Virus record (IMG/VR): IMGVR_UViG_3300032087_002364
Location: 1 to 25,193 of that record
Length of the DNA: 25,193 nt
DNA from: a virus
Strand: one strand, 5' to 3'
Position numbers and translations under genes: made by a program. Shown here one piece after another: positions 5,990 through 24,206 of the stretch (the first letter of the stretch is position 1; every line of letters begins with the position of its first letter). The notes beneath the pieces are model-generated. The model had not been told where the DNA came from. It was given only the letters and a program-made list of their open reading frames with translations, and ran no database searches.

Positions 5990-8632
5990 TTAAGGTAAAG
6001 TTTGGGTTACAGTAGAGGTTATTGTTTGGTTATTTACCATATCCTTAATAACAGCCCTGAAATTATAAGTAGAACCACTAACCAAGCCTTTATATATAAA
6101 AGTCCCTGAGTAACTTGTAGTGATACCTCCTAAATTTTCAGTTTTCTTAACAATCCAATCAGAAGAGCTTGAGAGCTTATACTGATACTCAATATTACCT
6201 AAACCTGAGCCTAAATCCTGAAAATCGTAGTTAACCGTACAAGTCGTAGATGTTTTACTGTTAAAAGACCAAGTTATAGCCGTAGGGTTAGAAGTGTCTT
6301 CTACTATTACAGTCCTTGTAGCTATAGTAACGTTATTATCTGAGTCAACCGCCTTATATCTTATATGATACGTACCCGCAGAGGATATATCACTTAAAGG
6401 CTGTATAGTTTCTACTGTTAGAGCTCCGTCTTCAGTATCGTTAGCCGTAGCTCCTGAGTCTGTATAACCAAAAGACGAGACGCTAACTGTATGAGGGTTA
6501 CTACCTAAAATTGTTATTATAGGAGCGTCCCCTACAGTTAAAACCCCAAACTCTGTATTCTCGAAAACAGAATCTGTTAATAACTCTATGTCAGATTTAC
6601 CGTCCTGAAGATTAGTCTTTATTGAGTTTATTCTATAAGGCATATTTTTATAGATAAATCTATCAGCTAAGCTAAAGTCTGTTAGTATAGATAAAGGTAG
6701 ATAGGCTGTTACTTTTAAAATACGACCTCTGATATTAAATAAAGGAGATATAACTCTATTATAATACCTACTCCACAAAGTGCCGTTAAAACCTCTGCTA
6801 AAGGTGTAGGAGTCGGTTTCTACGCCAAAGGTTATAGTTTTATTAGAGTCGTTAGAATAAAGCTCTAAATTATTAGAAGGTATATTAACACCCCTTAACT
6901 CTATAGATGAGCTTACAGATTCTCTATAAGATATAGCTATATCTACTTTTTGAGGGTAATAAATTATAGGCTTAGTTATTATAGAGTTATTATTTTCGTC
7001 TACAACCTCTCCTATCTGAATATCCGTGCCTGAGCCGTCTACGTCATCTGTTAGCTTACGGTATCTTAATAATTGAAAAGGTACTCTGATTGAATACTCA
7101 GAGCCTCCTACATTTATATCTACAGCCTTGTAAGAATACTCTCCATATTCCTTGCCTTGAAAATTATTTATAGCTAAAGAGTTTTTGTCTTTAGACTCCT
7201 CATAATTTAATCTAACTCCTGAATACTGATAAGAGCCGTCTATAGAAGCTGAAGAGTCGTCTACATATTTAGTTATATCCGTGTCTTTGCCTGACGCTAT
7301 ATAATCGACAAAAGGCTTAAACATTATATCTCCTGAGGACTGCTCAATAGCTACTAAGTTAAACATTCCTATAAGCCCTTTCAAAAAAGTCTCTATAGTA
7401 ATATCAGGTAAATTATTTGTTATAGAGTAAGGTATATTTTCAGTAGACTGAGCTGAGCCTGATAAAGTAAAGTTGTTACCCGAGCCCGTTAATATATATT
7501 CTAAATCTACAGCTATATTATTATCTCCTTCTATGCCTGCTCTTATAATTATATCTCCTGTTAGAGTGTTACCTTCAAACTCTAATTGGTAGTCTCCTTT
7601 ACGCCACTCATCAACCAATAAGTCTCCGTTAGTTAACCTATATACTCTTAATTGATACTCTAAGTTAGGGTTTTCAGGAGTTATGCTTAAAACTGTTCTA
7701 ACATACCTCGTTATAAAAGTCTCAGGCTCGTTTATAGTTATCCTTCCTGCTGAGTTAGGAGTTATATCATACCAATCAGAAGACGTGCCTCCGCCTGAAG
7801 CGGTTAAGCTCCAATCTGTAACAGAGTAGTTAGTCTGTAAATAAGAGTCGTCCTCATCACTTGTTTTTATCTCTCCTTTTTCTTTGTTTAAGTACATGAA
7901 TAGCTTATTCATTTCAGGTACATTGTCATTCTTAAAAAAGTCGTTTGTAAAAGTAATGTTATAAACCTCTTCTATAGACCTTATAATAGCGTTAAGTCTT
8001 ATACTCGGCTTTATGTTTTTATAATAAAGCCCGTTATCTGTAGCTACGTTATAGCTTGCGTTAGGAGTGTCGTTTAAATAAGAGCCTGAGTTAAAAAAAA
8101 CACCGCCCTCAGTAGTTATTAGAGATGCAATTAAATCGAAACCATTAGGCAAATTAACAGACGTTAAAGAAGCGTCTCTCTGAAGTAATGATTTTATGCT
8201 ATTAGCTGATATAGATAAGTAGTTAGAAGGACTGTCTAAAGTTGTTAAACTCGAAAGCTTATTACTTTTTAATGTACTCTTTAAATTAGATAAGCCTCCC
8301 GTAAATTTAATTGAATATGACTCTGCTACTCCGTTCTTAATTTTTACGTCGTTAACTTGTACATAACCCGTCTTAAAAACAGAGCCTCCAAGAGTAATAA
8401 CCGCCTCATGCTTAATTCTATTATCGTAACCGTTAGCTCTATTAACGTCCTCATACCTTTTAAAGGCTTTTTGATTTTGTTTTGAGTTTGCGGGAATTGA
8501 GAAGTCCTGAGAGTAATCTGAAAAAATAGAGTCTATCTTTTTAATATTCTTTAACGTTTGGGTTAAAGTAATAACCTCGTCATCAAATAACTCTAATTTA
8601 ATTCTATCTACATATACCTCTAACTTATTCAT
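5990..8632 (-). CDS. Large tail tip/baseplate-like protein with Ig-like C-terminal domains
   Basis: The 880-residue product has an N-terminal region (about 1-125) with DYSQDFSIPANSKQN and GYDNRIKHEAVITL, a pattern I recall from tail structural proteins of bacteroidetal phages. The middle (125-700) is a long beta-rich body including FKPFVDYIASG. Residues about 703-779 resemble a DUF5011/HYR-type Ig-like domain (FGYTDSGATANDTEDG, GTYHIRYKAVDSDNN). Residues about 783-880 resemble a fibronectin type III domain (NYDFQDLGSGLGNIEYQYK, SGSTYNFRAVIKD). Such add-on domains often decorate virions and may bind surface glycans. It starts one base after the upstream tail gene ends and precedes the tape measure gene. 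A distal-tail or hub role is inferred from size and position only. Confidence 0.7.
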   Translation of the reverse strand: MNKLEVYVDRIKLELFDDEVITLTQTLKNIKKIDSIFSDYSQDFSIPANSKQNQKAFKRYEDVNRANGYDNRIKHEAVITLGGSVFKTGYVQVNDVKIKNGVAESYSIKFTGGLSNLKSTLKSNKLSSLTTLDSPSNYLSISANSIKSLLQRDASLTSVNLPNGFDLIASLITTEGGVFFNSGSYLNDTPNASYNVATDNGLYYKNIKPSIRLNAIIRSIEEVYNITFTNDFFKNDNVPEMNKLFMYLNKEKGEIKTSDEDDSYLQTNYSVTDWSLTASGGGTSSDWYDITPNSAGRITINEPETFITRYVRTVLSITPENPNLEYQLRVYRLTNGDLLVDEWRKGDYQLEFEGNTLTGDIIIRAGIEGDNNIAVDLEYILTGSGNNFTLSGSAQSTENIPYSITNNLPDITIETFLKGLIGMFNLVAIEQSSGDIMFKPFVDYIASGKDTDITKYVDDSSASIDGSYQYSGVRLNYEESKDKNSLAINNFQGKEYGEYSYKAVDINVGGSEYSIRVPFQLLRYRKLTDDVDGSGTDIQIGEVVDENNNSIITKPIIYYPQKVDIAISYRESVSSSIELRGVNIPSNNLELYSNDSNKTITFGVETDSYTFSRGFNGTLWSRYYNRVISPLFNIRGRILKVTAYLPLSILTDFSLADRFIYKNMPYRINSIKTNLQDGKSDIELLTDSVFENTEFGVLTVGDAPIITILGSNPHTVSVSSFGYTDSGATANDTEDGALTVETIQPLSDISSAGTYHIRYKAVDSDNNVTIATRTVIVEDTSNPTAITWSFNSKTSTTCTVNYDFQDLGSGLGNIEYQYKLSSSSDWIVKKTENLGGITTSYSGTFIYKGLVSGSTYNFRAVIKDMVNNQTITSTVTQTLP

Positions 8633-10986: not shown

Positions 10987-11417
10987 AAAAAAACCTTCAT
11001 ACCTAACGCTATATCCACATCTACGTCTAACATTATCTGAGCGTACTTAGAGCTACCCTCGTAGTCTTCTATAAGATACTTAGAGCCTTGCTTCTTTATT
11101 ATAGGTCTATAAGCTACGGCCATAGCTCGGTTAAGTTCTTTGTCATCTGAGATGTACTTACACAAATCCTGATTCTCTCCGTAGGTTAAATCGTCGTCTA
11201 AATTAGGTATGAATCCATACTCTACTCCGTCATGAATAAAAGTCTGTTTAAATTCTCTATGCTCCTTATTAAACCACACCCTCATATCTTCTATAAGCTT
11301 AGTAGCTTCCTTATTCTTTAGTTTATTTATATTAAAGCCTACTAAAGTAGAAACACAAACCTCCTCAGGAGCCCCTTCAGGTAAGTTTAGATAGTCTATA
11401 TAGTTTTTGATTGTCAT
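10923..11417 (-). CDS. Tail assembly chaperone-like protein (G analogue)
   Basis: The 164-residue product includes YGFIPNLDDDLTYGENQDL, then NRAMAVAYRPIIKKQGSKYL, then a GMKVFFWTLTNELQ end. I recall this FIPNLD...TYGE..DL...MAV.YRPI pattern from a family of bacteroidetal and other phage proteins that sit just before a short helical frame; the arrangement and the slippery T-run near the 3' end suggest a tail assembly chaperone that binds the tape measure protein. After the slippery site about 18 more residues are read in the zero frame. It lies 35 bases after the large terminase gene rather than next to the tape measure gene, which is an unusual place. Function is inferred. Confidence 0.6.
   Translation of the reverse strand: MTIKNYIDYLNLPEGAPEEVCVSTLVGFNINKLKNKEATKLIEDMRVWFNKEHREFKQTFIHDGVEYGFIPNLDDDLTYGENQDLCKYISDDKELNRAMAVAYRPIIKKQGSKYLIEDYEGSSKYAQIMLDVDVDIALGMKVFFWTLTNELQSYILRYTTYQEK
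10986..10992 (-). other. Candidate -1 programmed frameshift site (T TTT TTT)
   Basis: Nine T residues (10985-10993 on the minus strand) follow ATGAAGG in the 164-residue gene. The seven T at 10992-10986 are phased X XXY YYZ for that gene. A -1 slip enters the next frame at TTG GAC, exactly where the 77-residue frame opens, and that frame lacks any good start codon of its own. This matches the geometry of lambda G/GT-type tail chaperone frameshifting. Confidence 0.6.
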
Positions 11418-20000: not shown

Positions 20001-20008
20001 CAAATATA
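20001..20008 (-). promoter_or_regulatory. Bacteroidetes-type -7 promoter box TATATTTG
   Basis: TATATTTG on the minus strand fits TAnnTTTG and lies 16 bases before the ATG at 19984, just after the terminator at 20013-20039. The next base pair CA is shared with the second such box at 23703-23710. A clear -33 TTG is not visible, since the right spacing falls in the terminator stem, so strength is uncertain. Confidence 0.55.
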
Positions 20009-21733: not shown

Positions 21734-21990
21734 CTGCTTTCAAGATACTTTTTCCACACATCAAGAGCGTAAGAAATTCCTTCCATAGTCCATATCAAAC
21801 CTACACCTCTAATTACCCAATCACTTGTTTTTTCAGGTACTATTAGCATTCCTAAGCCTGCACTTATACTTACTATGGTTAGTATAATTAACCTTGCATA
21901 CCCGTTTTTAAATTTATTCCATTTCTTACTTCTTACACTACCTATGCGTAATGCCTTGTCTACTTCTGCTGATGTATGTTCGTAATCCAT
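21721..21990 (-). CDS. Small membrane protein with two transmembrane segments
   Basis: The 89-residue product has a charged N-terminal part (about 1-30) and two hydrophobic segments, ARLIILTIVSISAGLGMLIV (about 32-51) and WVIRGVGLIWTMEGISYAL (about 58-76), joined by a short charged PEKTSD loop, then a basic C-terminus. It resembles small two-helix membrane proteins found near early phage genes. It could be a host-modifying or superinfection-exclusion protein or a second holin; no evidence here decides. It overlaps the downstream 45-residue gene by 13 bases and follows element E3. Confidence 0.6.
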   Translation of the reverse strand: MDYEHTSAEVDKALRIGSVRSKKWNKFKNGYARLIILTIVSISAGLGMLIVPEKTSDWVIRGVGLIWTMEGISYALDVWKKYLESRWKI

Positions 21991-23148: not shown

Positions 23149-23358
23149 TTATATTGATTTTAAAAATTTAGCGAATGAGTTATATTTTACTCCGTTTACA
23201 AAGACACGCATAAGCTCCGCCTCTGTCTTTGTTGGTCTCGGTAAGCGAGATATTTTATATACGTTCCCGTTAACCTCTATTACTTCTGTATTAGTTGTTT
23301 CTGAATAAGGCACTATAACCTTGTACTCTATTCCGCAATGTTTTACTATAGTTTTCAT
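23149..23358 (-). CDS. Hypothetical small beta-rich protein
   Basis: The 69-residue product (IVKHCGIEYKVIVPYSE, EVNGNVYKISRLPRPTKTE, VFVNGVKYNSFAKFLKSI) has two strand-rich halves with repeated G-x-x-Y-K turns. No family is recognised. It is the first gene downstream of the structured RNA and begins about 20 bases after its terminator-like end, with an A-rich leader. The RNA could therefore be either an independent transcript or a long 5' leader controlling this gene. Confidence 0.6.
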   Translation of the reverse strand: MKTIVKHCGIEYKVIVPYSETTNTEVIEVNGNVYKISRLPRPTKTEAELMRVFVNGVKYNSFAKFLKSI

Positions 23359-23375
23359 TTTGTTTGTGTTTTAAT

Positions 23376-23697
23376 TATTAAAAAGCTCCCTTCAATGCCA
23401 CGATTCGTAACGTTATAACCTGAATCGAACACATTACCTGAGGAGCTTGTAGTGGTAGCGTAAGAATCGAACTCACTTTAGTAACCATACACTACCATTT
23501 AGTATAGAGATTTACTTATCAGGTAAACCCTTTGCTATACTTTTCGTTTTATACTATATGTCAAGGAACTGCTCTTTTGATGAAGAGGTTTTAATTTTTA
23601 TGCGGTAAGGTTTATTATTAGCTTAGATTTGTAGCCGAACCCAATCGGCAAACTTGTCTCAGGTTTCATTAACCCCGCATTCAGTAATTAAAAGAAC
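23376..23697 (-). ncRNA. Candidate structured RNA with tRNA-like acceptor/T-arm element
   Basis: No convincing ORF exists in this 320-bp stretch, yet it is rich in nested stems on the minus strand. In order: ATGCGG/CCGCAT (23675-23680, 23600-23605) enclosing GCCGA/TCGGC; AGTATAG/CTATACT (23535-23541, 23501-23507) enclosing a TTTAC/GTAAA hairpin with a 7-base CTGATAA loop; TGGTAGT/GCTACCA (23491-23497, 23453-23459) enclosing a perfect tRNA-type T-arm with loop TTCGATT (23460-23476); and AAGCTCC/GGGAGCTT (23442-23448, 23383-23390) enclosing CGATTC/GAATCG and followed by TTTTT. A promoter lies just before it. It is not a normal tRNA and I find no tmRNA tag frame. A leader or attenuator for the 69-residue gene is the main alternative. 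Confidence 0.5.
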
Positions 23698-23702
23698 ATA
23701 TG

Positions 23703-23733
23703 CAAATATACATAGCAACATAATCAAATGCAA
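23703..23733 (-). promoter_or_regulatory. Bacteroidetes-type promoter upstream of the structured RNA
   Basis: TATATTTG at 23703-23710 matches TAnnTTTG, and a -33-like TTG at 23731-23733 lies 20 bases before it, within the normal spacing. Transcription would start near 23697 and run into the structured RNA. The -33 element is inside the first operator-like repeat. Confidence 0.65.
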
Positions 23734-23784
23734 GAAAAAACTAATATTTTCGATGAAATGCAAAAAAAATCCGATTAAATGTAA
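23722..23784. repeat. Three operator-like repeats (GATnAAATGcAA)
   Basis: Plus-strand copies aatcaaatgcaa (23722-23733), gatgaaatgcaa (23752-23763) and gattaaatgtaa (23773-23784) are spaced 30 and 21 bp apart, close to whole DNA turns. The first covers the -33 element of the promoter. They look like binding sites for a repressor or activator of the structured RNA/early unit. No gene lies here. Confidence 0.5.
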
Positions 23785-23810
23785 TTATTTGTAGGAAAAG
23801 TATGAGAATT

Positions 23811-24206
23811 TTATATTTCAGTTAAAGTAACCTCGCATCGAGGGTTATACTTGTCAATCTCAGTAGGTAATATAGTTTCTGTTTTAATAAAATCGTCGTT
23901 ATCGTCTTCTAAGCAGTTAAGCTCTACTAAGGCGTCCATTAAGTATTTAGAGACAACCCCTACCACATTCATTTTATCTAACCTTCTGTTAGAAGCCTTA
24001 AATACTTTATAAGTAACCTCTATAGGCTTATCTATATATATGTCCTTTATTAAAGGAGTTATTATTTTCTTATACTGTATTTTAGCTTCGTTGTTTAGGA
24101 AGGTATTAGTATTGCCGTATGCGTTCATATTTAATTTAATAACTCTATCTTTTGTAGTTTTACGAGGTAAAGAAACCTCTAACGGAGATACTATTTTATA
24201 TTGCAT
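23811..24206 (-). CDS. rusA: RusA-like Holliday junction resolvase
   Basis: The 131-residue product has the RusA pattern: LNMNAYGNTNTFLNN near residue 25, a strand YKVFKASNRRLDKMN (Asp77, Asn80), then VVSKYLMDALVELNCLEDDNDDF with Lys87, Asp91 and Asp101-Asp102. RusA uses three Asp and one Lys around these places to cut four-way junctions. Its length is typical. It would resolve recombination intermediates made by the exonuclease, ERF and SSB-like proteins. The start is 18 bases after the terminator of the lysis unit, so it must use read-through or a promoter I cannot see; the operator-bearing promoter is downstream of its stop. Confidence 0.85.
   Translation of the reverse strand: MQYKIVSPLEVSLPRKTTKDRVIKLNMNAYGNTNTFLNNEAKIQYKKIITPLIKDIYIDKPIEVTYKVFKASNRRLDKMNVVGVVSKYLMDALVELNCLEDDNDDFIKTETILPTEIDKYNPRCEVTLTEI

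Follow-up and report, generated by a model that had tools for sequence, protein, structure and literature searches.

We describe a stretch of about 317 bases which, in a Bacteroidota phage, very probably constitutes the 5' leader of the early genes, a structured RNA, and which, judged from its sequence, probably serves the early operon in cis as an antitermination signal of the boxA type. With three members found, this leader RNA defines a new RNA family and adds a new variant to the antitermination leaders of the boxA/nut type. An earlier sequence-only reading had proposed a candidate new structured RNA in the phage early region; this observation is confirmed and its interpretation is supported by homologues and covariation. 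The boxA and the leader role are additions to that reading, which recognised neither.

In the window, i.e. the whole 25,193-nt stretch of viral DNA analysed here, minus-strand genes flank a gap at 23359-23810 (452 bp), which is the longest internal gap. The about 320 bp without an ORF noted before in this packed genome lie in a gap that contains no plausible ORF, and protein-coding content of the leader stretch was rejected; of the listed ORFs with 40 aa or more, a single one falls inside the gap (46 aa, TTG start), on the opposite, plus strand. Upstream of the leader lies a RusA-like gene (23811-24206, minus strand). The promoter previously placed at one end of the stretch corresponds to a Bacteroidota-type sequence match, TTG-N20-TATATTTG, at 23733-23703 (minus strand), the single minus-strand match in 25 kb compared to a chance expectation of 0.66 per strand. 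An identical -7 box also precedes flavobacterial rRNA as well as the RNA in the two homologous phages described below. As the minus strand from the leader to position 21803 contains no further TA..TTTG match, it is probably the leader promoter from which the first early genes are transcribed. The first of them (23149-23358, minus strand) encodes 69 aa without family match and starts, with its ATG at 23358, about 20 nt past the U-tract of the leader. Elsewhere in the window, a strong terminator-like hairpin is found at the holin/RusA-like gene junction, where the lysis genes end (24256-24228, minus strand; 6674-6702 in the homologous phage L064), and a hairpin, GTGACAGATTTTAAAAAGTGTCAC, lies at about 18280-18252 (minus strand) within a 208-bp gap separating early genes.

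Based on folding and on the homologues L003 and L064, the predicted RNA extends on the minus strand from a 5' end near 23697 to the end of the U-tract at 23380, with the order promoter, 5' domain, P3, boxA, P4/P5, tRNA-like mini-helix, terminal hairpin, TTTTT and first early gene. Its conserved 5' end TGTTCTTTTAA (23688-23698), a degenerate boxA-like stretch, is identical in all three phages and directly follows the promoter. In the predicted fold, the 5' domain (23600-23680) consists of a stem ATGCGG/CCGCAT around the hairpin GCCGA-TTGGGT-TCGGC (23649-23634), which covaries with GCAGA-TTAGGT-TCTGC of L064, while L003 lacks such a hairpin. The P3 hairpin (CTCTT/AAGAG, 23572-23587), supported by covariation, is placed 2 nt 5' of the boxA GTTCCTTGACATA (23557-23569), which is the position of boxB in rrn leaders. 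It is followed by P4/P5 (23502-23540; GTATAG/CTATAC, a CAAA bulge, GGG/TCT and TTTAC/GTAAA), for which covariation and shuffled sequences both speak, by the mini-helix (23454-23496) and by the terminal hairpin AAGCTCC...GGGAGCTT with the subsequent TTTTT (23380-23448). The latter, whose outer stem of 8 bp ends at 23383 and whose U5 occupies 23384-23380, occurs with its U5 in all three phages and accounts for the long terminator-like stem reported at the other end of the stretch. Compared to a typical terminator its stem is longer and interrupted, and a simple terminator scan missed it.

Folding of the whole region on the minus strand is modestly better than that of dinucleotide shuffles (z -1.7 to -2.2), while two subdomains fold clearly better than shuffles, namely P4/P5 plus mini-helix (z -3.6) and the terminal hairpin (z -3.5). 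Since the plus strand folds equally well (z -2.4), folding energy alone is indecisive, and strand and reality of the RNA were settled by the homologues. A plus-strand RNA of comparable folding was rejected, as it would lack promoter, terminator and conserved motifs. With respect to the at least four nested stem systems on one strand that had been described from the sequence, several stable stems are indeed predicted on the minus strand, but they are mostly arranged in series and not nested.

Homologues at the same locus are present in two uncultivated phages, L003 (IMGVR 3300034374_004719) and L064 (IMGVR 3300006029_000035), to which relatives of the holin and RusA-like genes led. In both, the element is located between the RusA-like gene on one side and small early genes on the other, and the elements follow each other as TATATTTG promoter, TGTTCTTTTAA, hairpin, GTTCTTTGACATA, GCAAAGGG within a helix, and terminal hairpin with U5. 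In L064, boxA and P4 are separated by an additional domain of about 100 nt (7616-7715), the ends of which, GTGTAAGT and ACTTACAT, can pair; L003 has a short hairpin at this place. The wider search made use of DNA patterns, of RusA-like, holin and ERF neighbours, and of a covariance model that was scanned against 400 genomes (the family of an Aequorivita MAG) and 100 further sources. At the other retrieved loci with RusA-like, holin or ERF relatives the motif is absent in this setting, a search starting from the neighbouring early protein yielded no further homologue, and a genome scan with the RusA alignment returned one MAG (L119, Aequorivita), in which the RNA is absent. Those additional pattern and covariance-model matches that were inspected had arisen by chance, in several cases from terminator hairpins. 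In two pattern scans, 80 of 117 stretches were among the matches listed, and further members may exist.

The covarying pairs that the earlier reading had named as a check are found in these homologues. In a core alignment of the three phages (A4, which omits the L064 insertion), 10 of 19 base pairs are changed on both sides, a value reached by none of 500 shuffles, and 94.6% of the cells pair, compared to 33-56% when the partner is slid by 1-3 columns. Two-sided changes affect four of the five P3 pairs and six pairs of P4/P5. In shuffled flanks, the P4+P5 layout arises in 0.3% (window), 0.6% (L064) and 0.01% (L003) of cases, and a hairpin at the P3 position in 2%, 9% and 27%, respectively. As the structure was drawn with the same three sequences in view, the covariation supports the helices and is not a full test; with only three homologues known, the structure rests on few sequences.

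The element matches no known RNA class, in line with the sequence-only reading. Rfam gave no match, rRNA included, at the gathering threshold in the window (among others none to 6S-flavo, Flavo-1, Bacteroidales-1 or EAR, RF01735), and no match at E<=10 for 651 bases around the window element or for the L003 element; on L064 only sub-threshold matches were obtained. ARAGORN detected neither a tRNA nor a tmRNA in the leader stretch, GenBank phage records contain no real DNA match to it, and a literature search, with most subscription journals outside its scope, retrieved no paper on such a boxA leader element.

The motif between P3 and P4 reads GTTC(C/T)TTGACATA and is kept in all three phages, with C at position 5 in the window vs T in L003 and L064. 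Because it is shared with rRNA leaders and 16S-23S spacers of Bacteroidota, we identify it with high confidence, by sequence comparison, as the rrn-type boxA of this phylum, and thus as a putative NusB/S10 site. Among 148 Bacteroidota genomes, 10 contain GTTCTTTGACATATTG, compared to 1 for the reversed control; of its 11 loci, 9 lie in the 16S-23S spacer right before the 23S rRNA. The L003 and L064 motifs match this spacer motif exactly over 13 bases, that of the window with one change. In flavobacterial rRNA leaders, GTTCATT(G/A)ACATATTG, AAGTTCATT(G/A)ACATATTG and close variants appear soon after the TATATTTG promoter; this form differs by 1-2 bases from the phage and spacer boxA. In E. coli, the second rrn boxA likewise sits in the 16S-23S spacer before the 23S rRNA (PMC10250234). 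Compared to the published gamma-proteobacterial consensus GYTCTTTAANA (PMC5725501), L003 and L064 agree at 10 and the window at 9 of 11 positions. In the leaders of two further phages, L213 and L239, this boxA lies 19 and 42 nt, respectively, downstream of TATATTTG.

Related motifs were also observed in other settings. boxA has been reported in CRISPR leaders, and a boxA-like GTTCTTTGACATACTG is present in the leader directly before a flavobacterial CRISPR array (L319, 1501-1516). In 21 loci of large phages (L202-L273, e.g. L240 at 5743 and L273 at 10782), GTTC(C/T)TTGACATA(C/T)AGGAG is found 27-29 nt upstream of an ATG that starts a small protein whose N-terminal part includes a hydrophobic stretch. 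A tRNA gene precedes 11 of these 21 loci by at most 300 nt, mostly ending within about 12 nt, which places a boxA-like motif at the end of a phage tRNA array.

As the leader boxA corresponds to the host signal that keeps the polymerase going through the rRNA genes, the phage probably borrows the host machinery to get past terminators. Host RNA polymerase would initiate at the TATATTTG promoter and transcribe the leader. The nascent boxA, beside P3 and before the CAAA-bulged P4/P5, would then recruit host NusB-S10 and other Nus factors, and the polymerase thus modified would pass the terminal hairpin, which lies about 20 nt upstream of the first gene, and perhaps a second hairpin farther downstream. 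Unmodified polymerase, in turn, would stop at the terminal hairpin and leave a short RNA only. A candidate for the second target is an intrinsic-terminator-like hairpin in the early gene run (20043-20015, minus strand; 13-bp stem and T-run), to which similar hairpins in L003 (8096-8117) and L064 (about 11105-11127) correspond at the same gene junction. A TATATTTG follows this hairpin at 20008, so that it may simply separate two transcription units. In known cases boxA mainly counters Rho but can also repress, and the suhB boxA promotes Rho termination (PMC5725501). For this reason the sign of the regulation by the leader is not certain, and further RNA or protein elements would be required for passage of an intrinsic terminator. 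An N-like protein was not recognised; the two gene products beside the leader match no Pfam or PHROG family, N-type proteins being short and hard to detect. It is conceivable, if rather doubtful, that the leader is a self-contained RNA antiterminator in which an rRNA-type boxA, an RNA module of its own and a tRNA-like elbow suffice without a phage protein. Such an element in phages of Bacteroidota, no less tentatively, would combine the mechanism of rrn antitermination with that of put-type RNA antitermination.

The strong terminal hairpin with its U5 in all three phages, the compact structure and the location of boxA outside the stable stems would also suit a free-standing phage small RNA that ends at the U-tract and whose boxA serves as a NusB-S10 decoy lowering host rRNA synthesis. 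We consider this unlikely, since the next gene starts about 20 nt further on without a promoter match in between, so that transcription must partly continue, and since the leader position is kept in all three phages. Alternatively, the RNA could be a regulatory attenuator that is switched by another signal (alternative pairing, a protein or a metabolite), in which case boxA would merely belong to the background of a long operon. In L003, strong pairing (-20.0 kcal/mol, attained by 0.1% of shuffles) links the 5' end of the RNA to the 3' arm of the terminal hairpin and would thereby compete with the terminator. In the window and in L064, however, this pairing is no better than in shuffles (17% and 28%, respectively), and a conserved long-range pairing was rejected because it holds in L003 only. 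Moreover, no ligand-pocket-like conserved core exists beyond boxA and CAAAGGG, which leaves an attenuator of this kind with a low probability as well.

The mini-helix upstream of the terminal hairpin raises the question of a relation to tRNA. It comprises a 6-bp acceptor-like stem (GGTAGT/GCTACC) that is joined straight to a 5-bp T-stem (GTGAG/CTTAC, T-loop TTCGATT) without anticodon arm and D stem; the linker keeps GGTTA in the window and L064, which could serve as the GG of a D-loop. L064 shows the same layout with compensated stems (7768-7806), while L003 lacks the mini-helix. In shuffled flanks the acceptor/T-arm layout arises in 0.12% (window) and 0.05% (L064) of cases; MFE folding chooses the mini-helix in L064, while a competing pairing wins in the window. 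It forms neither a full cloverleaf nor a tmRNA with tag frame, ARAGORN and Rfam being negative. We speculate that it is probably accessory, e.g. an element for RNase P type processing or stability. The T-arm-like GTTCGATTC and the acceptor-like stem in the window and L064, together with the weak resemblance of L064 to the T-arm of a tmRNA, could likewise mean that the leader is a tRNA-gene remnant or a tRNA-derived attP whose stems were left by descent. This is very improbable and largely refuted by the blank tRNA and tmRNA search, by the two acceptor strands having changed together, and by L003, which keeps the remaining elements without a mini-helix; in addition, the T-arm and acceptor stretch of L064 is absent, at up to 2 mismatches, from 61 genomes of a Flavobacteriaceae MAG's family. 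That all stems arose by chance within an AT-rich non-coding gap, as a whole-region z of only about -2 on either strand might suggest, is hardly credible in view of the conserved element order and boxA, and the covariation across three sequences refutes it for the core.

We therefore return to the boxA-type antitermination leader. Most of the detailed knowledge of phage antitermination comes from phages of Proteobacteria; if our interpretation is true, Bacteroidota phages also capture the rRNA antitermination machinery, and the leader offers a short, mutable RNA for testing such capture. The analysis furthermore puts the rrn boxA of Bacteroidota on record, and it suggests use of this motif by other phages as well.

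The put RNAs of HK022 are structured phage early leader RNAs, and EAR elements structured operon leaders, which like the present leader lie ahead of terminators; to our knowledge, neither is built round a boxA. Nor do we know of boxA leaders of suhB or CRISPR arrays that carry the conserved helix set of the phage leader. The latter has no Rfam match to EAR (PMC2864571), and it shares with the suhB leader (PMC5725501) and the CRISPR-array leader L319 a boxA in a non-rRNA leader. As in lambda nut (boxA and boxB, N protein), the boxA is part of a phage early-operon leader upstream of terminators. In contrast to nut, one phage hairpin precedes boxA on its 5' side, and no short boxB adjoins boxA in the place of the 3' helix: P4/P5 follows at a distance of at least 16 nt in the window and L003 and of more than 100 nt in L064, which does not correspond to a nut-type 3' boxB. 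With the rrn leader (boxB-boxA-boxC) the phage RNA has in common the rRNA-type boxA of its phylum downstream of the same promoter type, and a hairpin directly 5' of boxA in all three phages, corresponding to the E. coli order boxB-boxA (PMC10250234). It differs from the rrn leader in that it precedes early genes, with no rRNA downstream and no recognised boxC, and in that its boxA is followed by a bulged helix, a mini-helix (two phages) and a terminator. The covarying hairpin 5' of boxA, the CAAA-bulged helix 3' of it and the mini-helix in two of the three phages are thus the unusual extras of this leader.
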